A DNA stretch of 45,145 nt, taken from positions 186,272 to 231,416 of the forward strand of contig PAQF01000025.1 in NCBI GenBank assembly GCA_002709695.1. The letters run 5' to 3'. The position numbers were made by a program, and so were the translations under genes. Position 1 is the stretch's first letter. The number at the start of each line of letters is the position of its first letter. Shown here in pieces: positions 12,028 to 34,390 of this stretch. Origin of the DNA: Candidatus Poribacteria bacterium. Lineage in GTDB: Bacteria > Poribacteria > WGA-4E > UBA9662. Under the pieces are notes generated by a model, which made no database searches, was not told the origin of the DNA, and saw nothing but the letters and a program-made list of their open reading frames with translations.

Positions 12028-12296
12028 TTTTTATCTATAGAATATACAAAAGCCAGAATCTCAGCGACAGCACGATAAAACTCTTGGGGAATTTCCGTAC
12101 CAACCTCTAACTTCACAAGAGCCTCCACAACTTCGGGTTGCTCATAAACTGGTACTTCATGTAAGTTCGCAATCTCCAAAATCTGTTTTGCGATTTCCCC
12201 CTCTCCAGCAGCAACAATATGAGGAGCAACACGCTCATCCGGCTCATAACGAAGTGCCACTGCCTTCTGCCGTTTCGAATTCTCATGCACTAACAT
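12006..12296 (-). CDS. flhX: FlhB C-terminal-domain protein (FlhX/FlhB2 type)
   Basis: This is a stand-alone copy of the cytoplasmic domain of the flagellar export switch protein FlhB. From the ATG at 12296 it has 96 residues. The sequence KAVALRYEPDERVAPHIVAA, then EIAKQILEIANLHEVPVYEQ and IPQEFYRAVAEILAFVYSID follows the family almost throughout. The NPTH autocleavage motif and the membrane domain of FlhB are missing, as is usual for FlhX proteins. A GTG at 12314 could also start the frame but would overlap more of the preceding gene. FlhX can partly replace the FlhB C-domain in switching export from hook to filament subunits. It sits directly behind a FliK-like gene, the partner that triggers this switch. 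Confidence 0.9.
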   Translation of the reverse strand: MLVHENSKRQKAVALRYEPDERVAPHIVAAGEGEIAKQILEIANLHEVPVYEQPEVVEALVKLEVGTEIPQEFYRAVAEILAFVYSIDKKWEGRKI

Positions 12297-17105: not shown

Positions 17106-20100
17106 CTATTTTAGAATAACCATTTTCTTTATAGCATCATAGTGATTAGTAATCAATTCATAAAAGTAAATACCGCTTGCAACCTGCTCTCCAAAATCGT
17201 TTTGACCGTCCCAATAAATCGCATGCTCTCTTCGAGTATAATCACCAACGGGCTGAACACCTATATCAATGCGCCGAATTTGTTGACCAGTGGCATCATA
17301 AACCACAATCGTAACAGAAGATGGCTGACTGAGACGGTAAGGAATCCAGGTTTCTGGATTAAACGGGTTAGGATAATTTTGAATCAATTCTGTCTGAGAA
17401 GGAGTCTTTAAAGGTTCAATAGATCTATTCCAAACATTTGGCAACTTCACTAGATTCTGATCATCACCAACAACCGTTAACTCCTTAAATTGGAGTTCTG
17501 ATATATCATCAGTACGTGCGATGAAACGAAACTTCGCTAACGATCCTGTCCCCATGATGCTATCATCATCACCCGTAACCATATTAGCAACAATAATCTT
17601 CCTAGTCCCATAATTTGTTTCATAATCACGACTAATAAAGAACGAACGAGAAAGAGCTGGATTTGTCCCAAAGAGATCACCTTCCTGAACAGAATCTTCA
17701 ACCAATCCTAGAGATTTTGGGTCGTATTCAACTTCAAATGCATAACCTCGAACCCTGTTAAAGTCTACAACAAAACTCACATCGATAACGTCGTTCATTT
17801 GCACAACGTTAGGCGTAATTGGTGTACTCAGGCGAACAACATTGGTAATCACACTTGGTGCAGCTGCAGGGGGTGGTCCACTAGACGCAGTTGGAGGAAC
17901 GCCAAGTTTACCAAAGTTCCGTGCCAGAATCGAAAAATCGCTAAGATTCACCTTCCCATCATTATTAATGTCCGCATCCTCATCGAAAACCTCACTACCT
18001 TCAACAGTTCCAAAAACGGTCATCAAAGTACTCAAATCAGCAATATTTATACGGTTATCATTATCAACATCGCCACCAGTTAAACGCTGAGATTTCCCAT
18101 CCTGTGAATAGATATTAATATCCTGCAATTTGTCACCAGGAACCACTCGAAGCATATAAGAATTTGACCCAACAGCTTTAGATATATACTGGCCACGAAT
18201 ATATGACGGAGCTTTAGCAACTAATTCCCACGTGCCTGTTGGGATGCCATTAATGGTATAAGTACCATCAGGTTTTGGCGTTATTTGAATCCCTTCTAAG
18301 GCGGGATCCTCATCATTAGTAATACTAGTAATTACTTCCTGCTCAACACTAGCTTCAGCTTCTTCATTACCATTAGCCTTGGGTTTCGGTGCAGGAACTC
18401 CACTTAATCCTATCGGTATATCCTCCGTTTGACCAGGTCTCCGAAGAGCAAAGGTAACCAACGCTGAATGATCCTGACGACCCTCAAGCAAAATTTTCCC
18501 CGTTATGCTCGCATAAGGAACAACTTGGACACGAAGAGCAGGGTTAATTGCAATAGGAGAGATATCCTCCACATCACCATTTTCGTTAACAGCAACTACT
18601 GATGTGCTACGATTATTCGTGGCTTCATCAAAGTCGAACGAGATCGTAGTATTAATTGGACGTGTACCAAAATCCTTTTTAACCTTGAAACCAATTTTAG
18701 CTAGCGTGCGATACTCATTCAGTTTAATTATCGCAGTTGGATTCTTGACAACAATACTATAATCCAATTGATAACCACTAATTCCATTGGCCATACTATC
18801 TTCAATAGCATCCCCGTGATTATCATTTTCTAAGATCTCTTGCTGGTTCGTCTCGACATCATCGAGATCGAATACTAGCGTATTTTTGTAATTTTCGAGT
18901 TGCTGATCTGTAGGATTCTCAATCCCTTGCGCTCGTAATTCATCGACCGAAGAAAGCTGACGGAAAGGCTGATCAACGTTTCCAACTTGAAGAAAACGGT
19001 CATCAAAAGTAAGATACACACTAGCACCTGAAATGGCGACAGCTGGGCTACGAAGTTGTACAGCAACATCAAACTCCTCCCCAGGACCAACGACGAGAGC
19101 ATTAGGCCGTAATCGGATTTGAACCTTACGTATAGTCAACGCTCCTGAACTAATATCATATCCTTCATTACCACTACTATCAGCAATCCTGGCATAGATA
19201 TAATAGGAACCATTGAGATTAATACCATTATCCAACTCAAAAGATTGGATATCCCAAGAGTAACTCCCTTGTCCAATACTACTCGAAGCAGCAGACACCC
19301 CCTCAGCAACCGTACCAGACAAACTCGTGCTTTGGTTACCAATCGAATCAATTAGTATATCTACAGCCGAAGACGTTTTCCTTTGATGATAATATAGGTT
19401 TACCGAAACACCATTATTATCCAAATCCTCATTAAGCCACGAGATAGTAAATTCAGTAGTGGCTTTAGAACCTTCACGAATTGGAGAAATAAGTTTAATA
19501 AGAGGAGGATAGGTGATAATCACCTTCCCATCACTCCGAACCGCTTTTTGCTTGATTTGTTTCTCTGTTTTCGAGCCAGTGTCTCTATCACTAATAATTG
19601 CGTATATATAGACTCCATCTTTATTCTCTGGTACACGTGCGGTGGTGAAATCCCATTTATACTGTCCCAACGTACCATCATCATCTTCAGATAGATCAAC
19701 AACAATGAGCTCCGCATTTTCACTTAACGAAACAACATCGGCCGTTGATAGATCCAACGGGCTATAAAACAGATTAATTCTGGCATTACCCCGATTCTTT
19801 TTATCATTCCATTGAATTACCACAGAACCATCAGTCACGGCAATATCATCCTCTGGAGACAGGTTCAAGATATCAACATCATGCCGAACCTCAATTTTAC
19901 CAGGACTACGTGCAAGATCCGACGAGATCGCAGTAAAGTCCTCAATAATACCGTAAATTGTATAGATTCCTTCAGGGATTTCATGAGTATCCCACACAAT
20001 TGAAGTCACTTCACTTCCAACCGTTAAATTCACAGCATCTGGTTCATCAGTCCCAGCGGAAGCCGGCACAATAACACCTGCAGTACCAACAGCGACACTT

Positions 20101-21338
20101 GCTCTCAACTGATCGGCATCCTTCGGGCCATAGTTAGATTTTTCGGCATAATACAACATAATCTTCGCTTCAGGATTCGGACCAACCGCACTAAAATCGA
20201 TAATACCTTGATCATCAAAGCGAGTCGGTGGTAATCTATCCGGAACTAATATCTTCACCACAGGTTGTTCTGGCATTTTGGTGATAATTGGCCCCGTTGA
20301 ACTAAAATTCTCGCTCGGCCCCGCAGAACCAGATATACTAAAACCAAGAGCAGTTTCTGTTTCGATAATTATCCCTAATTTATCATTCTCTCTAGCAATT
20401 TCTTCAGACTCAACCTTTGCTACTAGTATGAAGTTGTTCGTCACTGGATCAGTTGAACCAAGCATCCCTTTGATTTCCTCATCCAAATCAAAAATCATTG
20501 TGACAACATCCGTCTGAACTTCACCGATGGCACTATCACTTTCATTAAACATCTTGAATGGTTCAGCGTCCCGATAAAGGCTCAAAGTTGCCACAGATTC
20601 ACGAACAAACGGAGGCTCAAATCGCAAAGAAAGAGACCGAAGTTTCTGGGTAACATCTGATTTTATTTCAATTGCCGCAAGTTCAATCGATTTTCCAAAC
20701 GATACTGGAACATTCTCTTTAAGAGCCGTTACCGTAATCGACTCAATCCCCCTGGCTATTGGCCCCTCTACCACTCTTTGGTCTGCTGGTGGCGCGACAG
20801 CCGCAGCTTGCAAAAAGAAAAAAGCATTATTACCAAAATTTAAAACTATTTGATCTCCACGTGCAGTTTGCTCAGGTTGAACGATCACAACCAGCAAGAA
20901 ATTACTAACTGTTTGTTCATCAAGAGTTCCAATTGGGTACCCCAATCCACGCTTCTGTAAATTCAGCAAAGCTCTACCGTTTTCATCTAACTTCCCGTCA
21001 GCAACAAATTCACCTGCATTCCTATCAGGGACCCCATCACTGTTAACATCGTCATAAAGCTCAATCCGATCAATAGCACTATCCTTCACGCCTTTGTTAC
21101 CTTGTTGATCTGGATTTTGATTCGAGACCCTTAGAAAAAACCATTGATCCTCATTTCCATCATCAGTAATGGAAATTTTTGCTGTAACGGCCTCTAAATC
21201 ACCCGGATCCACGATATTGTCGCTTGTTACAGGTTCTATTTTAATATCAGTGACAAGCCCCCAAGAAAGGCCTGTAATAAGAATCAAACTAGAAATACAG
21301 GTAACCGCCACCAGGAACTCTTGGGTTGTTTTCTTCAT
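17106..21338 (-). CDS. giant secreted protein with cohesin-like, regulatory, dockerin and C-terminal sorting-like domains
   Basis: This 1410-residue protein has a signal peptide (1-28). Residues about 30-730 are tandem beta-sandwich modules with repeated SYSWDI/KWDF-type strands. A cohesin-like domain lies at 739-938 (PGEEFDVAVQLRS, ASVYLTFDDRFLQV), a carboxypeptidase-regulatory-like domain at about 944-1080, and a dockerin with two calcium loops at 1086-1145 (DVDNDNRINIADL and DINNDGKVNLSDF). A proline-rich linker (1146-1161), a second cohesin-like domain (1162-1300) and a C-terminal 90-residue domain (1321-1410; NYPNPFNPETWIPYRLS, ending KKMVILK) follow. That last domain resembles FlgD-type Ig/type IX sorting tails and is common in Poribacteria. 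With both cohesin-like and dockerin modules it could polymerise or bind the other cohesin-like protein. A scaffold role is inferred. It sits between flgL and the transglycosylase. Confidence 0.85.
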   Translation of the reverse strand: MKKTTQEFLVAVTCISSLILITGLSWGLVTDIKIEPVTSDNIVDPGDLEAVTAKISITDDGNEDQWFFLRVSNQNPDQQGNKGVKDSAIDRIELYDDVNSDGVPDRNAGEFVADGKLDENGRALLNLQKRGLGYPIGTLDEQTVSNFLLVVIVQPEQTARGDQIVLNFGNNAFFFLQAAAVAPPADQRVVEGPIARGIESITVTALKENVPVSFGKSIELAAIEIKSDVTQKLRSLSLRFEPPFVRESVATLSLYRDAEPFKMFNESDSAIGEVQTDVVTMIFDLDEEIKGMLGSTDPVTNNFILVAKVESEEIARENDKLGIIIETETALGFSISGSAGPSENFSSTGPIITKMPEQPVVKILVPDRLPPTRFDDQGIIDFSAVGPNPEAKIMLYYAEKSNYGPKDADQLRASVAVGTAGVIVPASAGTDEPDAVNLTVGSEVTSIVWDTHEIPEGIYTIYGIIEDFTAISSDLARSPGKIEVRHDVDILNLSPEDDIAVTDGSVVIQWNDKKNRGNARINLFYSPLDLSTADVVSLSENAELIVVDLSEDDDGTLGQYKWDFTTARVPENKDGVYIYAIISDRDTGSKTEKQIKQKAVRSDGKVIITYPPLIKLISPIREGSKATTEFTISWLNEDLDNNGVSVNLYYHQRKTSSAVDILIDSIGNQSTSLSGTVAEGVSAASSSIGQGSYSWDIQSFELDNGINLNGSYYIYARIADSSGNEGYDISSGALTIRKVQIRLRPNALVVGPGEEFDVAVQLRSPAVAISGASVYLTFDDRFLQVGNVDQPFRQLSSVDELRAQGIENPTDQQLENYKNTLVFDLDDVETNQQEILENDNHGDAIEDSMANGISGYQLDYSIVVKNPTAIIKLNEYRTLAKIGFKVKKDFGTRPINTTISFDFDEATNNRSTSVVAVNENGDVEDISPIAINPALRVQVVPYASITGKILLEGRQDHSALVTFALRRPGQTEDIPIGLSGVPAPKPKANGNEEAEASVEQEVITSITNDEDPALEGIQITPKPDGTYTINGIPTGTWELVAKAPSYIRGQYISKAVGSNSYMLRVVPGDKLQDINIYSQDGKSQRLTGGDVDNDNRINIADLSTLMTVFGTVEGSEVFDEDADINNDGKVNLSDFSILARNFGKLGVPPTASSGPPPAAAPSVITNVVRLSTPITPNVVQMNDVIDVSFVVDFNRVRGYAFEVEYDPKSLGLVEDSVQEGDLFGTNPALSRSFFISRDYETNYGTRKIIVANMVTGDDDSIMGTGSLAKFRFIARTDDISELQFKELTVVGDDQNLVKLPNVWNRSIEPLKTPSQTELIQNYPNPFNPETWIPYRLSQPSSVTIVVYDATGQQIRRIDIGVQPVGDYTRREHAIYWDGQNDFGEQVASGIYFYELITNHYDAIKKMVILK

Positions 21339-21406: not shown

Positions 21407-22810
21407 TTAACTGAACATATTTAGCAAACTTGATGCTGACGACATCAACTGTGACCCTGTAGACAAACTTGCACTCAGAAGTGCTTGCTGTGTCTGATAC
21501 TCAACAAGCGCAGTTGTCATATCAATTTCTTCAACTTTCTGCAGAAACCCCTTTAGCCCGAGGATCTGATCTTCAAGCCTAGATCGCATGACGTGAAGAC
21601 GGTCTATCCGTGCACCAGCTTCAGTTTGGTGCACGGTGATCTGTTCAGTTGTGCGCTCTAACTTACTTGCCACTTCACCGATGGGGCCCATCCCACCATT
21701 ACGAACTGCATCTCGTAATTCAATTAAATGATCAAAAACTCTTTGAAAAACTATACTACCAGGAACTCCAGTAGGAATAAACGAATTACGCCCAACACGC
21801 TCCTGCTTGGTACCATTATCACCAACATACCGAACACCAATAATATCACCTATACCAACATCTTCATTCTTAAGAACCGCCGCACCTCTTTCCACAGAAT
21901 AACTCCGTTGTAAGGAATGCCTGAGCCTAATCACAGCTCGGTTTTCAAGAATATCCGTTTCTACACTTTCTACAATTATATCCTCGCCTCCATCAACGTC
22001 CTGAACCCTAATTTGTTGGCCCGCTTCAATCGTATTTTGCACTTGATCCAATGGAAGCACTAAAGAACCCACAGCAGCATCTTTGGTTAATGGCGTCACT
22101 ATTGACCCATCGGCATTTGAAATCTGTGCATTTCCATCAACGAAGTACGGCCTAGCCAACTGCCCTGTAACTGTAATCACAGATCGATCACCAACAACTT
22201 GGATTGATTCAATTAAAACTTTCTCGCTTACATCCCCACTAGACAAAACAATTTCGTCACCAGCATTAAAATTACTTCCGTCACCTGCAGAAACCTCTAA
22301 AGTTCGGAGGGAGGGGTTACTTAAAATAGTATATTGACGAGTAAAAGGTTCAGTTGAACCACGCTGTGTTTCAAACGCAACACCTTCAGTCTTGGTACCA
22401 GCAAATAAGGGAACACCAGCGAAATCAATATTTACCATGTCCACCACAGATTCAATTAACTGTCCAATCTCAGCAGAATAATATTTATAATCACTAGAAT
22501 TGTTGGTTTCAGACTGGGCCATATGAGCCAAATCCTGCGCTCGGAATAAAACATCTGAAACCCCTTGATAAGCCCCATTAGCCACATCTATCAAAGCTTC
22601 CGAATGCTCAGTATTTGAAACAAACTGCTCACTTTGATCAATGTTTGCTTTCAAATCCAATATACGATTTGCACGACCAGGATCCGCCGAAGGTTTATCA
22701 ACCTTAAGCCCTGTTGACAACTGCATTTGCGCTCTCTCTAAGGCTCCAAGCCGTGTCTCAATTCTTTTTTTGAGATTATTTCCTATCGTTTGCAGTGTTA
22801 CCTTTGGCAT
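21407..22810 (-). CDS. flgL: flagellar hook-associated protein 3 (FlgL) with inserted beta domains
   Basis: FlgL forms the junction between hook and filament. The N-terminal flagellin-like helices (residues 1-140; LSTGLKVDKPSADPGRA) and the C-terminal helices (about 355-467; VEYQTQQALLSASLSTGSQL) are typical. At 467 residues it is much longer than the usual 300 or so. The excess is a central region with two similar beta units at about 170-231 and 246-313 (each with an N/A-GD or AGQ turn, paired strands and Y.V..GA.). AGGAA lies upstream of the ATG. It follows flgK by about 70 bases. The beta units will sit on the outer surface of the junction if exported normally. Confidence 0.92.
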   Translation of the reverse strand: MPKVTLQTIGNNLKKRIETRLGALERAQMQLSTGLKVDKPSADPGRANRILDLKANIDQSEQFVSNTEHSEALIDVANGAYQGVSDVLFRAQDLAHMAQSETNNSSDYKYYSAEIGQLIESVVDMVNIDFAGVPLFAGTKTEGVAFETQRGSTEPFTRQYTILSNPSLRTLEVSAGDGSNFNAGDEIVLSSGDVSEKVLIESIQVVGDRSVITVTGQLARPYFVDGNAQISNADGSIVTPLTKDAAVGSLVLPLDQVQNTIEAGQQIRVQDVDGGEDIIVESVETDILENRAVIRLRHSLQRSYSVERGAAVLKNEDVGIGDIIGVRYVGDNGTKQERVGRNSFIPTGVPGSIVFQRVFDHLIELRDAVRNGGMGPIGEVASKLERTTEQITVHQTEAGARIDRLHVMRSRLEDQILGLKGFLQKVEEIDMTTALVEYQTQQALLSASLSTGSQLMSSASSLLNMFS

Positions 22811-22881: not shown

Positions 22882-24360
22882 TTATCTTGGAGCCATACGA
22901 TTAATCACAGTATCTGTCATACCATCTATAGTTGTCATCAGACGTGCTGCTGCTTGAAAAACATTTTGAGCTATTAAGACATCAACTAACTCTTCATCAA
23001 TAGAAACACCAGAAATATCCTGATACCTCGAATCCAGTTGTTCTCTGATAAGTTCCGCACTTTTGAGTTGCCTAGCATTAGACTGAGTGCGTCCACCCAA
23101 CGTAACAACAGAAGAATTATAAAAATCGAAGACGTTTAACGTGTTGTCAGCAAATAACAAATTATCGCGAACTTGCACAATTTGGTTTGCAACACTATTA
23201 TCTCCCCGTGCCCCGCCTTGCCCAGCCGCAATATTATTTAGATTTGTCTTTATATCCCCAGTAAGGGCAATAGTAGCAGCAGCTCGCACAGGAGCCTCCA
23301 GAAGCACTTCTTCTGTCCCCGAAGCCACTGCCCCATCAGGCAAATTGAACTGAAAGAAAGATCTACCTGCTTCGCCATCCAAACCAGTACCATTTTGATG
23401 CATCCCATTAATTTCACGCGAAAGCTTGTAAGCAACCGAATCAAGATTCTTCATAAGTCCAGGTATAATCTCATCCTGAACATTAAGTAACCCACCGATT
23501 GCTCCCGACTCAACTCGAAGATCAGATAATCTCCCTACCCGGTTGGCCACTATCTTAGATAACTTTGTACTCCCACCGTCATTGTCCTTGCTCACAACCT
23601 GCAATTTATTAACTTCTTCCTGCCGAATAATTGCCGTCCCATCCAAAAAAAGCGATACTGTACCATCAGCATTCTCAAAAACTCTCACATCAACCAAATC
23701 TGCAATTTCGGATACAACACCATCACGCAAGTCCATAAGATCATGTGCCGGGAAAGGACCAACTTTTGATCTACCAATATCTTCGTGAACTTCAGCTAAC
23801 TGCTCTAAAAGCGAATTCACTCGATCAACCCGAATCTGAACATCTTCCGCGAACCCCGCCTGTATCAACTCTAATTCCTCGTAGGCACTTCTTAAATCAC
23901 CAGCTAAGGCTTCACCTTTGGCACGCAACTCCGCTCGAAACGCAGCATTAGGTGGTTCCTGAGCAAGAGTTTCCCAAGCATTAAAAAATTCGGATAAAGT
24001 AGAATTAAAACTGGACGAACCCGAAAACTCATTAAAAACCACTTCTATACGGCTTAAACCCAGTTCTTCAGATTCCAAACGCCCCAATCTTTGATCAACT
24101 TGCCGAATCTGATTTTCAACAAAGACATCACGACGCCTAGTAATAGTAGTTAGAGAAACCCCCGTACCCAGTTGAATCGCCCGGCTGAAAGCAGAAGGAC
24201 CTCTGTACGGCAACCCTGGAGTTGGCCGAATAACAGCAACCTGGCGGTGGTACGTTGGATCACCTGCACTGGATATATTCTGCTCACTAGTTTGGAGAGC
24301 AGACTGATAAGACTGCATGGTACGCCTGCTCATATCCAAAATACTAAAAAGATTCGACAT
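22882..24360 (-). CDS. flgK: flagellar hook-associated protein 1 (FlgK)
   Basis: FlgK is the first hook-filament junction protein. The 492-residue product begins with the rod/hook-type N-terminal helix (MSNLFSILDMSRRTMQSYQS, TSEQNISSAGDPTYHRQVAV). It continues with the FlgK-specific VSLTTITRRRDVFVENQIR and ends with a typical C-terminal helix (DVLIAQNVFQAAARLMTTID). AGGAG lies eight bases before the ATG. The order flgN-flgK-flgL is conserved. Length is within the family range. Confidence 0.95.
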   Translation of the reverse strand: MSNLFSILDMSRRTMQSYQSALQTSEQNISSAGDPTYHRQVAVIRPTPGLPYRGPSAFSRAIQLGTGVSLTTITRRRDVFVENQIRQVDQRLGRLESEELGLSRIEVVFNEFSGSSSFNSTLSEFFNAWETLAQEPPNAAFRAELRAKGEALAGDLRSAYEELELIQAGFAEDVQIRVDRVNSLLEQLAEVHEDIGRSKVGPFPAHDLMDLRDGVVSEIADLVDVRVFENADGTVSLFLDGTAIIRQEEVNKLQVVSKDNDGGSTKLSKIVANRVGRLSDLRVESGAIGGLLNVQDEIIPGLMKNLDSVAYKLSREINGMHQNGTGLDGEAGRSFFQFNLPDGAVASGTEEVLLEAPVRAAATIALTGDIKTNLNNIAAGQGGARGDNSVANQIVQVRDNLLFADNTLNVFDFYNSSVVTLGGRTQSNARQLKSAELIREQLDSRYQDISGVSIDEELVDVLIAQNVFQAAARLMTTIDGMTDTVINRMAPR

Positions 24361-24380: not shown

Positions 24381-24878
24381 CTAAATACGGTGATCAAACA
24401 TCCCCTTACCGACCGGCGACCGTAAGCTTCCATCATCCTCATAGGTCTCACCCGGCTCTTCAATCCGCGTAACTTGATCGATAAGGAAACTAACATACTC
24501 ATACTCGCTTAACAACAACTCTTTATTAGTCGCATTGACATACTCAAACTCTGTTCTTACACGCTGTACTTCATCAAAAATATCAACAAACTCAGATTTG
24601 AGGGGTTCTTCAGCTAATTCAATCAATGTAGCTGCATCCATGGATTTAGAACCTACATGGGGGAAAGCAGACAATTCAGCCAACAAATCATCACGTTCTA
24701 ACTCAACGCTATTGATTCTATAAATTAGCTTTTCCTTCTCAGAAATAATATCAGCGAGATCTTCAATTTTCCTTTCAACTAGGACCTGACGCTCCTGATA
24801 AAGCAACTCCAGAAGATTACTGTACTTCTCCAACTCATACTTAACTAAACTGTACAGATTCAAAAGGTGATCTTGCAT
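24381..24878 (-). CDS. flgN: FlgN-type export chaperone
   Basis: This is a 165-residue, mostly helical cytoplasmic protein placed immediately before flgK, the position of FlgN, the chaperone of FlgK and FlgL. It has the FlgN layout: an N-terminal helix LYSLVKYELEKYSNLLELLYQERQVLVERKIEDL, then SEKEKLIYRINSVELERDDLL, and a last long helix. A TTG at 24884 could start six bases earlier, but the ATG at 24878 fits the family better. A possible promoter lies at 24948-24976. No FlgM anti-sigma gene is seen beside it. Confidence 0.8.
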   Translation of the reverse strand: MQDHLLNLYSLVKYELEKYSNLLELLYQERQVLVERKIEDLADIISEKEKLIYRINSVELERDDLLAELSAFPHVGSKSMDAATLIELAEEPLKSEFVDIFDEVQRVRTEFEYVNATNKELLLSEYEYVSFLIDQVTRIEEPGETYEDDGSLRSPVGKGMFDHRI

Positions 24879-24947
24879 GTTCAATACCCAATTGCTATAG
24901 TCAAATTACTATACCCATAATATCGACCCACAACACACAAACTTTAT

Positions 24948-24989: not shown

Positions 24990-25778
24990 TTATAATGTCA
25001 TTCCAAGTCGGGCAAGCTGAATGGCGTTACCAATAGTTGCATCCTGAGCCATCATTACCTTTTGGTTAGCTTGATAGGCACGTGTAATCGTGATCAAATC
25101 GACCATTTCAGTAACAACACTTACATTCGACATCTCAAGCGTACCTGTACGAATATTTGGGTTTTCAACTGAATCAACCGTGAGGTTTGGATCCGACGGA
25201 ACAAACATGCTATTACCAAGTTTCATAAGCTTATATGGTTTCAAAAAATCGACAACCTGCAAACGATCCACAAACTCTCCATCCACTAACACATTACCAT
25301 TGGGATCAATATCCACTTCACTACCAGTAACCTCAATTGGCCCCTTGTCCCCTAAAACCAAATGCCCTTCTGTGGTCACAAGCATTTTGTCAACATTCAA
25401 GACAAAATTCCCATTTCGCGTATAGGCTTGACCTACAGGAGCTTGGACTGTAAAAAAACCATCTCCTAAAATAGCCAAATCTAATGTGTTTCCAGTATTT
25501 TGATAATTCGCTGGTGCCACAAAATCATGCGCAGTTTCCGCAAAATTTGCGCCAGCACCCAATCTACCAACTTCGGGTCGGGGATCAACAATAAAGTTTT
25601 TCCCAATCCTTCGTGGATCATTAATCCGATTCAACAATACACTTGGAAAAGCCTTTGAAATAGCAATATCTCTTTTATAACCAGACGTATTCGCATTAGC
25701 CAGATTATTAGCAACGATCTCCTGACGTGAGGCTTCATTAAGCATTCCAGATGCAGAAATAAACAATCCACGAGTCAT
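24990..25778 (-). CDS. flgF: flagellar basal-body rod protein FlgF
   Basis: This proximal rod protein has 262 residues. The N-terminus MTRGLFISASGMLNEASRQE followed by IVANNLANANTSGYKRD is the conserved rod motif. The C-terminus (TLEMSNVSVVTEMVDLITITRAYQANQKVM) is the matching helix. It is distinguished from FlgG by its sequence and by the presence of a clear flgG at 33614-34390. AAGGAAG lies just before the ATG. Its position after flgE is unusual, because flgF and flgG are normally adjacent. Confidence 0.88.
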   Translation of the reverse strand: MTRGLFISASGMLNEASRQEIVANNLANANTSGYKRDIAISKAFPSVLLNRINDPRRIGKNFIVDPRPEVGRLGAGANFAETAHDFVAPANYQNTGNTLDLAILGDGFFTVQAPVGQAYTRNGNFVLNVDKMLVTTEGHLVLGDKGPIEVTGSEVDIDPNGNVLVDGEFVDRLQVVDFLKPYKLMKLGNSMFVPSDPNLTVDSVENPNIRTGTLEMSNVSVVTEMVDLITITRAYQANQKVMMAQDATIGNAIQLARLGMTL

Positions 25779-25857: not shown

Positions 25858-27480
25858 CTACCGTTTCAATCCCATAGCCTCGGTTAAAATATTATCCGAA
25901 GTGGTAATTACACGAGCATTAGCTTGAAATCCACGTTCAGTTGTAATCAAGTCCGTAAACTCCTCTGTCAAGTCAACATTCGACATCTCAAGAGCACCAG
26001 CGGTGATTTCTCCCATATTTCGCGTTCCAGCCGTAACAAAAGCAGGAGCACCAGACGAAGGAGAAGTCGTCACCATGGTATCCGACAACACAGTCAAACC
26101 TTCAGCATTAGGAATATCAGCAGCAGCAAGCTGTGCTATAGCTTTGTTAACACCATTAGAAAAAATACCATCAATTAAACCAGTGGCACTGATACTAAAC
26201 GAAACTAAATTCCCCGGCCCAACACCATCTTGCCTTTGAGCAATAGCATTATGGCTATCAGCAAACTGGGTCAAATTGGCAAAATCAAGTTTGACAGCAA
26301 GTTCCCCTGCCCCAGTTTCATTACCTTCAGCATCAATTGGCTGAACGTTAATGTAAGCAATTGCAGGATCAGCTGTCGAAAACGAAGCAGTCTGATTATT
26401 AAACTGGATTAACCCTGTCCTAACTTTATCATCACCATTAGTAACCACCTTGGCATCGGTTATATGCGAATCTTCTATGTTCCATCTCCACGTTCCAGCG
26501 GGATTTACCTGACCATCAGGCCGCACTGCTTCTTTGGTGAAAGTAATTTCAGCGTCGTGGCGTTGTCCCAAACCATCAAAAATACCAATCTCTGTTTTAT
26601 GGAATTTTGAAATATACTCAAGCGAAGCAGTACCAGCTTTAATTTCGTCACCAAATTTAAGCGTAACGAGCTGTCTACCATCTGCATCCGAAAAAGTCAC
26701 AGTGCTATCAACAATTGCTAGTGCTTCACCACCATCTAGGGAAGCCGTAAATGTATCGGCACCTTCCGCTCTTTCAACACGTACCTTGTGAGATCCTGGT
26801 CTCAAATCTCCACCATCCTGCGCCGGTGTGACAGAGCTTAACAACCCCGTACCACCATCAGAAACAACTTCAACTGCCCCAGCTCTCGCATCTAGGTTAG
26901 ACGCAAATTGAACGAACGAAGTTTTTCTTGATATCGAGCGCATAAAAGGGAAGGAAACGGAAGAGATAGCATCCGGATTGGCTGTGTTAACCTCACCTGT
27001 CACAGGATCTGCCTGCCAACCTAGTACTTTATACCCATTTGGTCGATAGACTAAATCACCACTCTGATCAATACCGAAATTCCCATTCCTGGTAAAAGCT
27101 CTAATGGAAGACGCTTTGATAGATCGAGATGATTCTTCCTGAGCTTTTGTTCCTCCAGCAGGAACTTCCAAAACAAAATGGCCTTTCCCACGAAACATCA
27201 AATCAGTCGGCATATCAGTCGTCTGCGCACTACCATTCCTCTGCAACACATCAATAGAGCCAATTTGAGACCCCGTACCTACAGATTGTGGATTGACGCC
27301 CCCTCTATCCCCTTGTGCCGCCACTGCAGCTTTCAAGGTTTGTGAAAATGCCTCACGGAAAACAACACGGGATTTCTTAAAACCAATTGTATTAATATTC
27401 GATAGATTGTGTCCAATAACATTAATCTTAGTTTGGTGGTTCTTCAAACCGCTCAATCCTGCATAAAGTGCACCAATCAT
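25858..27480 (-). CDS. flgE: flagellar hook protein FlgE
   Basis: This 540-residue hook subunit has the N-terminal motif MIGALYAGLSGLKNHQTKIN, then NLSNINTIGFKKSRVVFREA, and a C-terminal helix typical of hook proteins (ALEMSNVDLTEEFTDLITTERGFQANARVI). The central part contains the variable beta domains expected for FlgE. AGGGGG precedes the ATG at a good distance. It lies between flgC and flgF. Length is in the usual upper range for hook proteins. Confidence 0.95.
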   Translation of the reverse strand: MIGALYAGLSGLKNHQTKINVIGHNLSNINTIGFKKSRVVFREAFSQTLKAAVAAQGDRGGVNPQSVGTGSQIGSIDVLQRNGSAQTTDMPTDLMFRGKGHFVLEVPAGGTKAQEESSRSIKASSIRAFTRNGNFGIDQSGDLVYRPNGYKVLGWQADPVTGEVNTANPDAISSVSFPFMRSISRKTSFVQFASNLDARAGAVEVVSDGGTGLLSSVTPAQDGGDLRPGSHKVRVERAEGADTFTASLDGGEALAIVDSTVTFSDADGRQLVTLKFGDEIKAGTASLEYISKFHKTEIGIFDGLGQRHDAEITFTKEAVRPDGQVNPAGTWRWNIEDSHITDAKVVTNGDDKVRTGLIQFNNQTASFSTADPAIAYINVQPIDAEGNETGAGELAVKLDFANLTQFADSHNAIAQRQDGVGPGNLVSFSISATGLIDGIFSNGVNKAIAQLAAADIPNAEGLTVLSDTMVTTSPSSGAPAFVTAGTRNMGEITAGALEMSNVDLTEEFTDLITTERGFQANARVITTSDNILTEAMGLKR

Positions 27481-27504: not shown

Positions 27505-27915
27505 TTATGAACGTCCAATACGCATAGCATCTCTTGCCATTATTTTTGCTGCATTAATTGCCTGAACATTTGCTTCGTACGACCGGGTAGCTGTAATCAT
27601 GTCCACCATTTCAGTTACTGTATCCACATTAGGCATATGTACGTACCCATTTTCATCAGCATCTGGGTGACCAGGATCAAACTTAAGTTTCAATGGATTC
27701 GATAATGAACGATCCTCCCGAATCCCATTTGGCGGTATGTAAACGCCCTTTAAACCCGGCTTTGCCATGTAAGTTACAAGCATCCTTCGAAATGGCCCTC
27801 CAGATTCGGTACGCGTGGTATTTACATTTGCGATGTTATTCGCAATCACTTCCATCCGTGTCCTTTCTGCCGTTAGGCCAGACGCACTGGAAGCGATTGC
27901 TGCAATGAAACTCAT
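27505..27915 (-). CDS. flgC: flagellar basal-body rod protein FlgC
   Basis: This proximal rod subunit has 136 residues, the normal size. The N-terminal motif SASGLTAERTRMEVIANNIA followed by NVNTT and the family-specific YVHMPNVDTVTEMVDMITAT segment followed by RSYEANVQAINAAK identify FlgC. GGAAGGGG lies upstream of the ATG. FlgC is normally next to FlgB and FliE; neither is near it here, so these would have to be elsewhere in the genome. Confidence 0.95.
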   Translation of the reverse strand: MSFIAAIASSASGLTAERTRMEVIANNIANVNTTRTESGGPFRRMLVTYMAKPGLKGVYIPPNGIREDRSLSNPLKLKFDPGHPDADENGYVHMPNVDTVTEMVDMITATRSYEANVQAINAAKIMARDAMRIGRS

Positions 27916-27930
27916 AAGCCCCTTCCTATA

Positions 27931-28329
27931 CTATACAATTACAGCACTATCAATATTTGTAAAAACATTATCTTTCATGCGACCACTATCAACGACCGTT
28001 ACAACTGTCCGGTTTTTGATACTTACAATCATCGCAAGATCATCCATCAATAACAAAGAGTCAGTTGCTCCCTTCTGCGAAGCCCGATCTATAGCTAACT
28101 CAATCTTGTCTATATCATTCGACGTTAAATTTATTTGGCGGACATCCAAACGCCCTTGAGCATGAGCACTGAATTGCACCCGTTGCCCTTTATCCACCAA
28201 ACGCTGATTAAGCACTCTCTTGAAAGAAACTCTTTCACTTTGTTTCCCTCTGGATACTCTGGATAACGAAGAAGACTTCGCCTGCTCCACCGATTTATGA
28301 GCGTTTACTTCGTTAGTACGAACAACCAT
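27931..28329 (-). CDS. flagellar operon protein of the TIGR02530 type
   Basis: This 132-residue soluble protein has a C-terminal half that matches the small flagellar-operon family TIGR02530: FSAHAQGRLDVRQINLTSND, then AIDRASQKGATDSLLLMDDL and AMIVSIKNRTVVTVVD. It sits directly after flgD, its usual neighbour in Firmicutes and several other phyla. The biochemical role is not established in the family. The N-terminal 50 residues are basic and poorly structured. Confidence 0.85.
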   Translation of the reverse strand: MVVRTNEVNAHKSVEQAKSSSLSRVSRGKQSERVSFKRVLNQRLVDKGQRVQFSAHAQGRLDVRQINLTSNDIDKIELAIDRASQKGATDSLLLMDDLAMIVSIKNRTVVTVVDSGRMKDNVFTNIDSAVIV

Positions 28330-28339
28330 CTAGATAATC

Positions 28340-28798
28340 CTATATTTCCGTTCCCATTGTGTTAGTTAAAGGAGGTTCAGAAACTGTTTTCACTAATGAG
28401 GCATCTATTTCTCGACCACCAACTAACAAGGATATTTGCCCATCTTCTCCCATCCGAATTGAAGAAACAATACCACCAATCAAATCACCATCGTTCCCTC
28501 CACCTAATGGAGCCGCTTCAATATACTTACCTAAGATTGTACTCGCTTGCATTAGAGCTGCCGCTGCAAAATTCTTATTTAGATTCTGCATTTGTTCAAG
28601 CGCACTGAATTCAGCCATCTGCGCTACAAATTGTTGATTATCCATCGGTTCTAGTGGGTTTTGGTGTTGCAACTGTGTTGTCAGCAATTTCAAGAAAGCC
28701 TGCTTATCTAATGAATTCTTTGTTTCCTTGACAGAATACGGATCATCCGTCTTTCCGATCAAGTCTGCAACGTTGAAACCAACTGGATTTATACCCAT
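28340..28798 (-). CDS. flgD: flagellar hook capping protein FlgD
   Basis: FlgD forms the temporary cap on which hook subunits polymerise. The 152-residue form has the conserved N-terminal part ([20 protein letters not shown], then [20 protein letters not shown]) and a short C-terminal region, so it lacks most of the tudor/Ig-like domain of long FlgD proteins. The ATG at 28798, with AGGAG seven bases upstream, is preferred over an in-frame TTG at 28804. It lies 10 bases after the FlgJ-FliK fusion. Confidence 0.93.
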
Positions 28799-28813
28799 TC
28801 TCAATCTCCTATG

Positions 28814-30787
28814 TTATACCAAATGATCAAACGAAAATGATCGACCTGAAACGCTTTGCACATCTTCCGAACTCTGCTTACCTGCTGCCGTTTGTCGAAT
28901 TGCCTGAGCCATCTGATCCATATCACGATTTGAACCATTCCACCCACCTTGACGATATCCCATATTTTCCTGCCAACCATTAAACTGGTTCGGTTGATGA
29001 GAATTGGATCCATTTTGCGAATCACCACTTCCAGTTGTCACCTGAAAATTGTCAATTTGAATCCCTTGATCAGCCAGCACACTACGAAGTTGGGCGAGAT
29101 TCCCACGAACGACCTCACCAACCATGATATTCCTTACATGAATCCGCGCATTGAGCGAATTGTCTTCAAACAAAAGCCTAATATGAAGCCGACCCAATCT
29201 GGGAGGTTCAAGATCAATAATAGCCTCCTGCATACCTCGAGCCAATTGAGGGCTAATCTTATCAATAATCTGAATCATCACACGATCGGCATTAGCTAAT
29301 TGTAATGTCGCTGAACTATTAAGTCCTTCGGAACTATTCATTAAAGCAGCGAGTTGATTTGTATCCAGATTTTGAATCTGATTCCAACTCAGCGATAAAT
29401 TCTGGACCGAATTTGTGATTGTCCCTGGAGTACTAGCTAGCATTTCAGAGGGCAACTGAATTTGCTGAGAATCCGACGACTGTTGCTGTTGACCATTACT
29501 CTGATTTGGATCCAACTGCATTAAAGCAATCCTAAGCCGTTGTAAAAAAGCAAGGTTTCTCTGATCACTATTATCAACATTTGCTAATAACTCAATTAGT
29601 GCTGATCTACCACCATCTTCTACTTTTGGCTGGGAAATCAAAAAATCGCGAACGGAATCAATTAGAGAAGCTCTAGAACGAACTCGCCTGAGAAGCTCAG
29701 ATTCTCCATTCTCAGAGGAATCGGCATCAATAGAAGGAGTTTGAGCCACATAAAATTGGCGAGAACTCGTCTGGTCCGTATCAACCTGTTGACGGGAAAC
29801 TGAGACATTCTCAATATTTTGTTGACTCAATTCCACATCCGACGATGAATTCTCAGACATAACAGAATACTGATTTAGTACAGCCGAAATAACTTCTTCC
29901 TCGACCGACATCATTTCAACCTCAACGCCTTCGGAATCTGTTGGCACAATTTCCAGCCCCTCTGAAGAAATTTCCACTCCCTCAGTTCCAACTCGATCCG
30001 CATCCGCATTAACAACCACAGACAACCCTGAATCATAATCTACCTGCGAAACAACTGTTGCATCCTCAGATAAACTCTCCAGATTGTCGTCTGTAGGCAT
30101 AACCCCTTCAAACCGAACAGTACCCGTAGCTTCAACATCGATTGCGGTTTCCGCTACATCCAATGTATCAGACACAGAAACAGGCTCGATTTCTCCATCA
30201 GAAATTACTTGGGACAAAGAGGCAAGGGATTCCAAATCAACATCCGAATCCAATGATTTTTCCAACCCACCTCCGGCCAGCCCAGCAACTACAGCCGCTA
30301 AGACCTCTTCTAAATCCGCCACTGCTTGTTGCCCATCAACTTCACCCAACGATACATCAGCATTTTCAGAACTACCCTCGACTGTATCAATATACTGACT
30401 AAGTTGCCGTATCAACATATCAGCTAAACCAAGTTGACCACTTTCTGCCATCCTCAGAGCATACTGTTCATCAAGCATACTGTTAAATATCTTCATTGAA
30501 GTACTGTTGGAACCGAGAAAATCTGTTTGACTAGCTGTATCTCGCATCATAGAAAGTAATTGGGCGGTAAAAATAGCTTCAAACTCCTTCGCTGTCTCCG
30601 TCAGCTTCTCAGCATTAGAGTTCACTGAGGCTCCTGTAATCACCCCTCTCTTGATACCCTCAACTTTAGGATTATTCTGCTTCCCTCCACTAAGAGATGA
30701 CAGCACTTTCTTAGATGCAACACCAGGTGCAGTAGTATCTAGGCTTTCATCTGTTAACTCTTGCAATAAAACAGGAAAAACTTCCAT
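28814..30787 (-). CDS. fusion of FlgJ rod-binding domain and FliK hook-length control domain
   Basis: In this 657-residue protein two flagellar functions are joined. Residues 60-130 are the FlgJ rod-binding domain (TAKEFEAIFTAQLLSMMRDT, LDEQYALRMAESGQLGLADM). Residues 135-400 are an acidic, low-complexity linker. Residues 495-585 are the FliK C-terminal domain (IIDLEPPRLGRLHIRLLFED, then RGNLAQLRSVLADQGIQIDN). A Gln/Asn/Gly-rich tail follows. FlgJ normally caps the growing rod and FliK sets hook length. No muramidase domain is present. The gene lies in the position of flgJ between flgI and flgD, where fliK is also often found before flgD. There is no frameshift or stop between the parts. Confidence 0.85.
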   Translation of the reverse strand: MEVFPVLLQELTDESLDTTAPGVASKKVLSSLSGGKQNNPKVEGIKRGVITGASVNSNAEKLTETAKEFEAIFTAQLLSMMRDTASQTDFLGSNSTSMKIFNSMLDEQYALRMAESGQLGLADMLIRQLSQYIDTVEGSSENADVSLGEVDGQQAVADLEEVLAAVVAGLAGGGLEKSLDSDVDLESLASLSQVISDGEIEPVSVSDTLDVAETAIDVEATGTVRFEGVMPTDDNLESLSEDATVVSQVDYDSGLSVVVNADADRVGTEGVEISSEGLEIVPTDSEGVEVEMMSVEEEVISAVLNQYSVMSENSSSDVELSQQNIENVSVSRQQVDTDQTSSRQFYVAQTPSIDADSSENGESELLRRVRSRASLIDSVRDFLISQPKVEDGGRSALIELLANVDNSDQRNLAFLQRLRIALMQLDPNQSNGQQQQSSDSQQIQLPSEMLASTPGTITNSVQNLSLSWNQIQNLDTNQLAALMNSSEGLNSSATLQLANADRVMIQIIDKISPQLARGMQEAIIDLEPPRLGRLHIRLLFEDNSLNARIHVRNIMVGEVVRGNLAQLRSVLADQGIQIDNFQVTTGSGDSQNGSNSHQPNQFNGWQENMGYRQGGWNGSNRDMDQMAQAIRQTAAGKQSSEDVQSVSGRSFSFDHLV

Positions 30788-30799
30788 TACCCAAACCCT

Positions 30800-31864
30800 T
30801 TACATAATAATTAAAGTTGCATGCAACGCACCTGCTTTTTCCATTAATTTCAAGACTTCGATCAGGTCTTCAGTCTTTGTACCAACAGATTTAAGAGCAG
30901 AAATAACATCACCTAAAGTAGTCCCTGCAGAAGACACCGGAGTAATGTTGATGGTTGTTGGAATCTCATCACCCTGACCATTACCGAGAGAAACAGCAAA
31001 CGGGGAAATTTGAACACCTTCACCAATGACAACCGCCCCAGTTTTAGGGTCAACAACAACAGTAGCTTGTGTATTAGGCTCAATCTTTAATTCACTGAGC
31101 GCCGCAATAAAATTGACCAGCTTGCCACCATGATACGCTTCGGGAACCTCAACCTTAACAGTCCCTGAATCCATTGGTTCAGCTATCCCATTCCAAAAAG
31201 TTTCATTAATTTTTTTAGCAATCAAGCTGGAAGTACTATAGTTAGGGTGATTCAAACGGAGATTTATCGAATCCATATCATCTAGGCTGATCTCCAAATC
31301 ACGCACCACTAAACCACCAGACGAAATTTTCCCATTTGGTGGCAATGTTCCGCCACGAGCCCCCTTTGGCCTAGTAACCACAATTCGCCCCTGAGCCGTT
31401 GCATATACTTTCCCATCTCCAGCTTGCAACCGCGCGAAAAGTAACGTTCCATTGTTCAAATCCTTAGCATCACCCATTGAGGAAACAAACACATCAAGCC
31501 GATCCCCAGTTTTAGCGAAAGGCGGAAGATCAGCCGTCACTATCACTGCCGCAATATTCCTGGCCTGCAACTGATCTGGATCTAGGCGAACACCTTCCAT
31601 CCGACTCAACATATTTGATAATGCTTGCCGGCCTAAAACTAAACGAGTACTATCGCCAGACCCTGGCAAACCAACGACAATCCCCATGCCCAATAGCTGG
31701 TTCGAGTTAATCTCCTGAATTCGGGTCACATCACCCACTTGAACTTCCACAGCAACTGCAGAAGTAACAAGAATGAGAAAGAACAATGACGAAATTCGAA
31801 ACACACTGCGCGTTGATCCCAAATAACGCATTTTCTTTCTTATCACCATGATTTCATTTCCCAT
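30800..31864 (-). CDS. flgI: flagellar P-ring protein FlgI
   Basis: FlgI polymerises around the rod in the peptidoglycan layer. The 354-residue product has a signal peptide (about 14-38) followed by the diagnostic VGDVTRIQEINSNQLLGMGI and VVGLPGSGDS, and later AVIVTADLPPFAKTGDRLDV. Internal ATGs at codons 6 and 12 could also be the start; none has a clear ribosome binding site. Length is normal. It starts about 5 bases after flgH. Confidence 0.96.
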   Translation of the reverse strand: MGNEIMVIRKKMRYLGSTRSVFRISSLFFLILVTSAVAVEVQVGDVTRIQEINSNQLLGMGIVVGLPGSGDSTRLVLGRQALSNMLSRMEGVRLDPDQLQARNIAAVIVTADLPPFAKTGDRLDVFVSSMGDAKDLNNGTLLFARLQAGDGKVYATAQGRIVVTRPKGARGGTLPPNGKISSGGLVVRDLEISLDDMDSINLRLNHPNYSTSSLIAKKINETFWNGIAEPMDSGTVKVEVPEAYHGGKLVNFIAALSELKIEPNTQATVVVDPKTGAVVIGEGVQISPFAVSLGNGQGDEIPTTINITPVSSAGTTLGDVISALKSVGTKTEDLIEVLKLMEKAGALHATLIIM

Positions 31865-31868
31865 TTGG

Positions 31869-32513
31869 TTAAAAAAGCAGACTCAGAAGCGAACCAACAA
31901 AACGAAAGGGAAAAGCAATAATGTCAACAACCTTCCCTCCTTGTCCCTGTTGCTCCGGTGCGCGATACTCAATTCTGGCATTCGCTAATGCCGATGAGAT
32001 AACACTATTATTAGGAGAAATATCTGAAGGGCGAACAATTCCTTCAACCTTAATCTCCGTTTCCTGATCGTCTATCGCAGTATGTTGAGTCCCCGCAACT
32101 CTCATATTACCATTTTCAAACACTTCTACGATAGTAGCTGTTACCGTTGCCACAAAACTTGTTTGACGTGAAGTCGTTTGGGCTCCACCCCGTTTCGTTT
32201 GCCCCGTTAGTGAGGCCGACCCAGCTCCATCTGGTATGGAACCCAAGAACCCAGCTCCTCCCGGCAAATTAGCATTTGCGCTCAAAGCAGAACTGCGATT
32301 TTTAGACGATTGTGCATTCTGGTTAGCTTGCGCATTCTGAACAATCACCACCGTTAGCAGATCGCCAACTTTCCTGCTAATTAAATCGGTGTACAGTTCA
32401 TCAGCAAGTTGCCCTTCTCGATACAAAACTTGTGCATCCAACTCAGTCGTTACAACCAAGCAAGTCAGGACAAAAACAACAACCACAAAAAACCTAGAAA
32501 ACGTACTTAGCAT
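31869..32513 (-). CDS. flgH: flagellar L-ring protein FlgH
   Basis: FlgH forms the ring in the outer membrane. The 214-residue protein contains the family segments RKVGDLLTVVIVQNAQANQN, then FVATVTATIVEVFENGNMRV, EIKVEGIVRPSDISPNNSVI and a C-terminal aromatic end. Most FlgH proteins are lipoproteins with an LxGC lipobox; here the signal peptide has only VLTC and a likely ordinary cleavage after LDA (residue 27). The lipid anchor may therefore be missing. The ribosome binding site is weak. Confidence 0.93.
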   Translation of the reverse strand: MLSTFSRFFVVVVFVLTCLVVTTELDAQVLYREGQLADELYTDLISRKVGDLLTVVIVQNAQANQNAQSSKNRSSALSANANLPGGAGFLGSIPDGAGSASLTGQTKRGGAQTTSRQTSFVATVTATIVEVFENGNMRVAGTQHTAIDDQETEIKVEGIVRPSDISPNNSVISSALANARIEYRAPEQQGQGGKVVDIIAFPFRFVGSLLSLLF

Positions 32514-32546: not shown

Positions 32547-33560
32547 TCACTGAACAGCAACTTGCACATCACCATTGGGCATCACAACACCAAAAATGAC
32601 TCTCTTGGACAAACGATTCTTTACTGATATTTCCTGGCCAATAAAGCCATCAGCCAAAGCTGTACCAGAGCTTTTCACCCGAACTCCGTTAAAATTCGCA
32701 ACGATTGTCACTAATTTTCCGCTTAAGATTTTCGGAATTCTTTCGACCATATTAGATATTAAGACAGTTCCCTTGGAAACACGGCGGTTTGCACGCATCT
32801 GTTTAAGCTGCGTTTCATGAACAGGGGCAAGTCTCGCTTGGCCTAGAGTTTGAGTGGAGCCCTCAAAATCCTTTAAGTCCAGCGGGTCGCCTCTGGTGAA
32901 GTTCTTTTTTGCAATCAATACTTTAGAAGTTAGTTTCACGCTAAATGGAATCTTAACTGACTTTCGATTAACACCATCAATCGAAATGTCTAAATAGACG
33001 TTAATATCTCCAGCAAGAAATTGAGATCGGAGTCGACGCAAGGAAAAATCAAGCTTACCAGTTGGCAAACTAAGATTTGGCACTGAAGTATCTGCTTCAA
33101 TTTGGTATTCGCCCCCATTAAAGCGTTGTGTCAGTTCTTCTAACAACGCACTTTGGGCAAAACTAATTAGCTCTTGCGCATCGACCGACTGAGACTTCCT
33201 GCTAACAAGCACCTTTGTGCTCTTTGAAATATCAAACGAACTTGGCTCAAGACCAACTTTTCGCAATGCCCTCTTGGCAATCTTCAATGAATTCCCAATA
33301 AAATCAGCATCTATAGTCACAGGAGGACGACCAACAAGAGGTGAGTACTTCAGCCGTAAAGATTGGACAACATCAATCTGGTTTTTAGTAAGCTGTTTAC
33401 CCTCGATTTTATGGGAGATATCTCCCATAAAAATGGATGGACCATCAACCTCTACCACATCAACAAATGTAATTTTAATCGTTTGAGCTGAAGCTACACC
33501 ACAAACAACCAAGAAAACAACCAGCGAAACTACTAAAGACCCACAAACTCTCAAATGCAA
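32547..33560 (-). CDS. flgA: flagellar P-ring assembly chaperone FlgA
   Basis: FlgA is a periplasmic chaperone for FlgI. The 337-residue product has a signal peptide (about 8-25, ending VASAQ) and a C-terminal SAF-type domain (about 225-337; VLIAKKNFTRGDPLDLKDFE, then RRVSKGTVLISNMVERIPKI and VRVKSSGTALADGFIGQEIS). An N-terminal extension of about 200 residues makes it longer than enterobacterial FlgA, as in many other phyla. Two TTG codons (33560 and 33554) are possible starts; AAGGTGGG fits the second better. It lies between flgG and flgH. Confidence 0.9.
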   Translation of the reverse strand: MHLRVCGSLVVSLVVFLVVCGVASAQTIKITFVDVVEVDGPSIFMGDISHKIEGKQLTKNQIDVVQSLRLKYSPLVGRPPVTIDADFIGNSLKIAKRALRKVGLEPSSFDISKSTKVLVSRKSQSVDAQELISFAQSALLEELTQRFNGGEYQIEADTSVPNLSLPTGKLDFSLRRLRSQFLAGDINVYLDISIDGVNRKSVKIPFSVKLTSKVLIAKKNFTRGDPLDLKDFEGSTQTLGQARLAPVHETQLKQMRANRRVSKGTVLISNMVERIPKILSGKLVTIVANFNGVRVKSSGTALADGFIGQEISVKNRLSKRVIFGVVMPNGDVQVAVQ

Positions 33561-33613: not shown

Positions 33614-34390
33614 CTACCTACGAATTTGGTTCGCTGTCGACAACATGTCATCGGAAGCAAGAATTGCACGCGAATTCGCTTCATAGGCACGTTGCGCCGT
33701 AATCAAGCGAACCATCTCTTCAACGACTTCAACATTGGAAATCTCCAGAAACCCAGAAGTAAGCGTTCCAAACTGGTCTTCTGTAGCTTCTCCAGAAGCC
33801 GCGGTTTGGCGGTAGAAGTTTGCACCGAGACTCTGCAAACCTGCAGGGTTAGGAAACCGGAAAATCTGAATCTGCCCGACCTGTTGGGGTTCTTCCTGGC
33901 CATCAGAACGAACGGAAACGGTCCCATCAGGACCAATCGACACATCTGCAGCATCCTCTGGAATATTGATGGAAGGATCAAGGACATGACCATCAGTAGT
34001 AACAATCCGAAACTGATCATCCAACTTAAAAGATCCGTCACGTGTATAAATTAAGTTTTGTTTATCATCAACAACCTTAAAGAAAGAATACGGACTATCA
34101 AGTTTCAAATCGAAAACATTTTTCGTCTCGACAACGTTCCCAAGAGAAAACATCCGTTGTGTTGCTCCTGTCCTTACACCATGCCCCAGTTGTATCCCAA
34201 CAGGAACAATCGTTTGCTGTGTGCTCTGCACACCAGGTGTTCGAAGCGTCTGATACAACAGATCCTGAAATTCAACCCGCGCTTTCTTGAAACCTGTCGT
34301 ATTAACATTAGCTAAGTTATTAGCAATCGTATCAACATTGAATTGTTGAGCTCGCATGCCAGTTGCAGACGTAAACAATGCGTTAATCAT
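33614..34390 (-). CDS. flgG: flagellar distal rod protein FlgG
   Basis: The 258-residue distal rod subunit shows the conserved N-terminus MINALFTSATGMRAQQFNVD followed by TIANNLANVNTTGFKKARVE, the FlgG-specific QDLLYQTLRTPG segment, and the C-terminal FLEISNVEVVEEMVRLITAQ followed by RAYEANSRAI. AAGGA lies just before the ATG. It is the first gene of the long flagellar/envelope block. Confidence 0.96.
   Translation of the reverse strand: MINALFTSATGMRAQQFNVDTIANNLANVNTTGFKKARVEFQDLLYQTLRTPGVQSTQQTIVPVGIQLGHGVRTGATQRMFSLGNVVETKNVFDLKLDSPYSFFKVVDDKQNLIYTRDGSFKLDDQFRIVTTDGHVLDPSINIPEDAADVSIGPDGTVSVRSDGQEEPQQVGQIQIFRFPNPAGLQSLGANFYRQTAASGEATEDQFGTLTSGFLEISNVEVVEEMVRLITAQRAYEANSRAILASDDMLSTANQIRR

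Follow-up and report, generated by a model that had tools for sequence, protein, structure and literature searches.

FlgJ is an early export substrate of the flagellum; many bacteria have a cargo domain at its C-terminus, and this domain is known to vary. In dual-domain FlgJ proteins, the N-terminal rod-binding domain is followed by a peptidoglycan hydrolase, which is a glucosaminidase in Salmonella and an M23 or SLT domain in other variants. There are also single-domain FlgJ proteins (in Borrelia and in delta- and epsilonproteobacteria), which end after the rod-binding domain, have no hydrolase and may be assisted by a separate SLT enzyme. Rod building by FlgJ and hook measurement by FliK are usually treated as separate stages performed by separate proteins. 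FlgJ caps the rod and is then ejected, and FlgD next caps the hook, before the hook starts to grow (PMC8517470, PMC11247099). Salmonella FliK (405 aa) is composed of FliK-N (1-207), a flexible linker (208-267) and FliK-C (268-405); the N-terminal ruler domain, which carries the export signal, binds FlgD and FlgE, and FliK-C binds FlhB (PMC6972891). As rod and hook form, FliK is secreted intermittently, and it switches export only if its transit is slow enough (PMC13344023).

Here we describe a gene in which a FlgJ and a FliK domain are joined. It lies in a stretch of 45,145 nucleotides (the window) of a Candidatus Poribacteria genome (GCA_002709695.1, contig PAQF01000025.1; hereafter the source genome, G000). 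Like dual-domain FlgJ, the encoded protein bears a C-terminal cargo behind a rod-binding domain and is encoded after flgI, but the cargo is the export switch of FliK and not a hydrolase. Single-domain FlgJ, including one encoded elsewhere in the same genome, resembles the fusion in lacking the hydrolase, whereas the fusion continues for about 510 more residues, FliK-C included. As in Salmonella FliK, the switch-domain fold is followed by a disordered tail (PMC6972891); the FliK-N ruler domain, however, has given way to a FlgJ domain, and the linker is acidic and far longer. The YscP/PscP ruler/switch proteins of injectisomes share the switch fold (Z 9.8 for PscP) but have no FlgJ domain, and the genes around the fusion are flagellar. 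We found no description of a FlgJ-FliK fusion in the literature searched; within that material, the protein combines two known families in a new way.

One frame with FlgJ and FliK domains

The fusion gene occupies positions 28814-30787 of the minus strand (ATG start at 30787, end at 28814) and encodes 657 aa. This is the single frame of the interval, and the plus strand there has many stops. A Pfam-A search of the protein gave two significant families and no others. Residues 81-128 match Rod-binding (PF10135; E 1.2e-12, 48.7 bits, with a cut-off of 25.1), and residues 513-591 match Flg_hook (PF02120; E 1.2e-16, 60.8 bits, with a cut-off of 29.8). The first-pass annotation, which missed the minus-strand location, had read this stretch as FlgJ and FliK domains in one open frame without a stop or frameshift, and the search bears this out.

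The FlgJ domain (30347-30622, residues 56-147, with the Pfam core at 30404-30547) keeps the family-invariant residues. No peptidoglycan hydrolase family was found in the protein with Pfam-A. The dual-domain FlgJ equivalog TIGR02541 (NCBIfam) reached 58.7 bits against a cut-off of 193 and, as this match spans the N-terminal part of dual-domain FlgJ alone, the fusion has no such hydrolase. At the other end, the FliK C-terminal (T3S4) export-switch domain (29003-29302, residues 496-595, Pfam core at 29015-29251) matches the solved FliK-C structure 2RRL by sequence alone (E 4.9e-5), and is followed by a C-terminal tail (28817-29002, residues 596-657) that is predicted to be mostly disordered.

Between both domains lies an acidic, low-complexity linker (29303-30346, residues 148-495), mostly disordered by prediction. 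Its length had been put at about 350 residues, and the count is 348, with 17.8% D+E against 4.3% K+R, a net charge of -47 and no Cys. The linker stands where the N-terminal ruler domain of FliK would be. No similarity to FliK N-terminal regions was detectable among the few FliK proteins compared, FliK-N being generally hard to align; thus, the binding of FlgD and FlgE, which is the role of FliK-N in Salmonella, is not indicated.

A structure prediction had also been suggested in the first-pass annotation, and an AlphaFold2 model built on an 18-row alignment agrees with the domain reading. The FlgJ part is predicted as three helices (58-85, 96-116 and 121-141) in a block with pLDDT mostly of 70-90, residues 169-359 of the linker have pLDDT below 50 nearly throughout, weak helices appear at 364-423, and the FliK-C fold at 500-590 is confident (pLDDT about 94). 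The top Foldseek match of the model is 2RRL (E 2.8e-5). With VIA-align, the FliK-C model superposes on 2RRL with Z 9.1 and on the switch (SS) domain of PscP with Z 9.8, in both cases with an rmsd of 2.8 Å over about 86 residues. For the FlgJ helices (residues 52-138), the Foldseek and VIA-align matches were generic helical ones and were set aside.

A search for full-length orthologs covered 98 genomes. An unbroken ortholog of 650 aa with 76% identity was found in a congeneric species (Candidatus Poribacteria UWMA-0119, DTUY01000052.1; G001, contig C52), and a diverged, intact one of 598 aa, in the same gene order, in another family of the same class (Candidatus Poribacteria Dive96_bin1.70, JAJRTO010000425.1; G075, contig C361). 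Profile searches recovered both Pfam domains in each of them. The latter ortholog is 39% identical to the source protein in the FlgJ part and 38% in FliK-C, and its linker is not meaningfully alignable; between the two congeners, linker length is nearly constant. Nei-Gojobori dN/dS between G000 and G001, calculated by segment, was 0.07 for FlgJ, 0.05 for FliK-C, 0.14 for residues 1-55 and 0.15 for the tail, and, within the linker, 0.41 for residues 148-330 and 0.11 for 331-495. Purifying selection therefore acts on every segment of the fusion, linker included, the first half of the linker being the loosest. As values stay at 0.05-0.15 in the domains, N-terminus and tail and at 0.11-0.41 in the linker, translation and selection extend over the whole frame. 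The related genomes are metagenome assemblies, and two genes might in principle have been united by an assembly or sequencing error. Such an artefact has a practically negligible probability, as independent assemblies of three species from two families share the in-frame fusion and the gene order, and codon-level selection runs across the linker. The FlgJ-FliK fusion is confirmed as real and conserved, and as one gene.

Two flagellar gene sets and the place of the fusion

The three genomes that carry the fusion each hold two flagellar gene sets, A and B. This second set in Poribacteria is brought to light here, with no previous description in the papers searched. Rod-binding matches occur at two loci of the source genome and Flg_hook matches at three. 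One locus of each kind belongs to set A, in separate genes; the third Flg_hook match is weak and belongs to a different, FliK-like protein. Set A is distributed over contigs C40 (flagellin, fliD, fliS, a sigma-54-type regulator, flgB-flgC-fliE-fliF to fliJ, a motE-like gene, fliK, flgD and flgE), C73 (motB and fliM to flhA) and C17 (flgF-flgG-flgA-flgH-flgI-flgJ-flgM-flgN-flgK-flgL, the flgJ product having 107 aa). As this is a second, complete set with separate FlgJ and FliK, which the first-pass annotation had missed, the fusion belongs to just one of the two flagella.

Set B is made up of the window operon and genes of contig C26. All of the window genes are on the minus strand and, in order of transcription, are flgG (distal rod, 33614-34390), flgA (32547-33560), flgH (L ring, 31869-32513), flgI (P ring, 30800-31864), the fusion, flgD (hook cap, 28340-28804), a TIGR02530 family flagellar protein gene (27931-28329), flgC (proximal rod, 27505-27915), flgE (hook, 25858-27480), a flgF-like rod protein gene (24990-25778), flgN (chaperone, 24381-24884), flgK (22882-24360, assigned by position and size, with a match to the related set A protein) and flgL (21407-22810, with a Flagellin_N match). 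The fusion sits between flgI, directly upstream, and flgD, which starts 9 bases past its stop codon; as had been proposed at first sight, it takes the place of flgJ before flgD. An identification of the TIGR02530 neighbour as FlgV was dropped, as FlgV has two transmembrane helices. On C26 there are flgB-fliE-fliF to fliJ, a motE-like gene, motA-motB, fliL to fliR, flhB, flhA, flhF, flhG and a sigma factor. Several gene names on the flanking contigs derive from local BLAST against named set A proteins, or from position and motif, and not from curated HMMs.

No fliK is present among the set B genes of C26, and set B has no FlgJ or canonical FliK besides the fusion. The same two sets occur in G075, where set B comprises the fusion (C361) and a basal operon without fliK (C399). 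The FlhB of set B has the NP-H autocleavage motif (NPVH at 269), and the partner that a FliK switch needs is therefore there. Of the Poribacteria tested, only the three fusion carriers have two full-length FlhA genes; the other flagellated genomes, some of them incomplete, have one each. In a maximum-likelihood tree, the set B FlhA proteins from the two families form one clade (100/99 support), and set A FlhA groups with the FlhA of several other Poribacteria that have a single copy. Copy pattern and tree thus mark set B as one distinct system, with the fusion as its trait.

Rod-binding matches were found in 14 of the 85 genomes of the phylum. All 14 have separate FlgJ frames of 104-192 aa, and the long fused frame is present in three of the 85; further Rod-binding searches in the phylum yielded no long fused frame in the eight genomes reached. 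Outside the phylum, 302 of the 387 genomes surveyed in all were searched (Rod-binding in 93, Flg_hook in 119, both in about 90), and in none of them were the two domains in one frame among the matches listed. Long Rod-binding frames from other phyla (at least 376 aa, plus some below that length) were read individually. They have SLT, M23 or glucosaminidase C-termini, are over-read or encode an unrelated protein, and FliK-C was absent from all of them by inspection.

Gene order suggests how the fusion may have originated. In set A, fliK-flgD-(TIGR02530)-flgE form one block, with fliK directly before flgD, and flgG-flgA-flgH-flgI-flgJ form another. In set B these blocks abut, and the fusion is found exactly at the junction of flgG-A-H-I-J and fliK-flgD-TIGR02530-flgE. 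We infer, from gene order, that flgJ and fliK probably merged where the two blocks met, and such a merger of the junction genes would explain the position of the fusion exactly.

A proposed role in rod and hook assembly

We consider it fairly probable that the fusion is a bifunctional early export substrate of the second flagellum, composed of rod cap, spacer and FliK-C switch, and derived from the merger of junction genes. In this model, the FlgJ domain would lead the chain and, taking over from FliK-N, provide an export signal of the rod type. The molecules exported first would settle at the rod tip as the cap, and later ones, during hook growth, would act as rulers secreted intermittently. 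The N-terminal end of such a ruler would slow at the tip while FliK-C passes FlhB and, once the hook is long enough, FliK-C would flip FlhB, export thereby turning to the filament type. Peptidoglycan would be opened by a separate enzyme, perhaps the SLT lytic transglycosylase encoded at the same locus (15966-17099, minus strand). For the stricter proposal, in which one obligatorily bifunctional protein would work at the rod tip first and as a ruler later, FliK-N being dispensable if FlgJ heads the ruler, we see about even chances. Points against the bifunctional reading are that the linker resembles none of the FliK N-terminal regions compared, that the switch might be thrown too early if FliK-C is exported while the rod is being built, and that a second FliK-like protein with its FlhX-like partner (12283-13641 and 12006-12314) could share the switching role.

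Several other readings have to be weighed. It had originally been suggested that a ruler starting at the rod cap would tie rod completion to hook length. In this reading, the FlgJ cap would stay at the tip with its tail hanging down the channel to FlhB, and both would be measured from one anchor. The linker, which is long, disordered and of nearly constant length in the two congeners, would suit this arrangement. Nevertheless, literal anchoring at the cap conflicts with the known order of assembly, in which FlgJ is gone and FlgD in place before hook growth (PMC8517470, PMC11247099). Moreover, several cap subunits would put several tails in one narrow export channel, and FliK works as separate molecules, secreted intermittently (PMC13344023). 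With FlgJ lost from the rod tip ahead of hook growth, we regard the tethered arrangement as quite improbable; separate molecules used in sequence seem more likely than a cap-anchored ruler.

Proteolysis of one chain, or a partly internal start, might alternatively yield FlgJ and FliK that work separately. A disordered linker would be cleavable and, in the source genome, some of the internal GTG, TTG and ATG codons have a weak Shine-Dalgarno-like motif in front; such an internal start is, however, not conserved (none in G001 and one, weak, in G075), and a comparison of the two families showed no conserved protease site, which leaves this reading unlikely, if less so than the tethered one. That set B is a decaying or specialised relic without a working flagellum, in which the fusion is merely tolerated, would fit its restriction to three of the 85 genomes of the phylum and the lack of a flagellin gene assigned to set B in the source genome. 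This seems very improbable, as the rod, ring, hook, junction, motor and export genes are complete and intact in the three genomes, and the dN/dS of the fusion is far below 1.

That selection maintains a natural fusion of this kind suggests that a single export substrate is able to serve the rod and the hook stages alike. The fusion also allows one to ask directly what is required of the N-terminal half of a ruler, whether just to lead the chain and slow at the tip, or to bind the hook cap specifically.

Other observations on the two gene sets

The FlgD proteins of the two sets differ in length, with 154 aa in set B (28340-28804) and 231 aa in set A (L028:1787-2482), and 144 and 224 aa, respectively, in G075. 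The two flagella differ in their hook caps. Between flgL and the SLT transglycosylase gene, the window encodes a secreted protein of 1410 aa (17106-21338, minus strand) with an NPFNPETWIPY-type C-terminal ending. G001 has an ortholog in this position, and in G075 flgL is followed by a gene for a protein of similar length.

Further along the same strand there is a gene for a 452-aa protein (12283-13641) whose end weakly resembles FliK-C (PF02120, E 2.8e-4, below the cut-off). It is overlapped by a 102-aa FlhB-C-like gene of the FlhX type (12006-12314; PF01312 positions 262-335, E 6e-21). The pair is kept in G001 (80% and 90%), and G075 has a distant FliK-like homolog elsewhere. Such pairs may be common, since many other genomes show a second Flg_hook protein.

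A third FlhA, consisting of the N-terminal part alone (about 250 aa, PF00771 positions 1-239), occurs in three related genomes (G000:C34:36996-37736, also L095:8969-9733; G001:C403:48228; G002:C505:9691) and, in G000, lies outside the flagellar operons. Additionally, G000 has 14 flagellin-N matches, FlgL included (e.g., G000:C30:37022, C37:6004, C75, C79, C80 and C85), and some of these frames encode 1380-1589 aa, far above the usual size of a flagellin.
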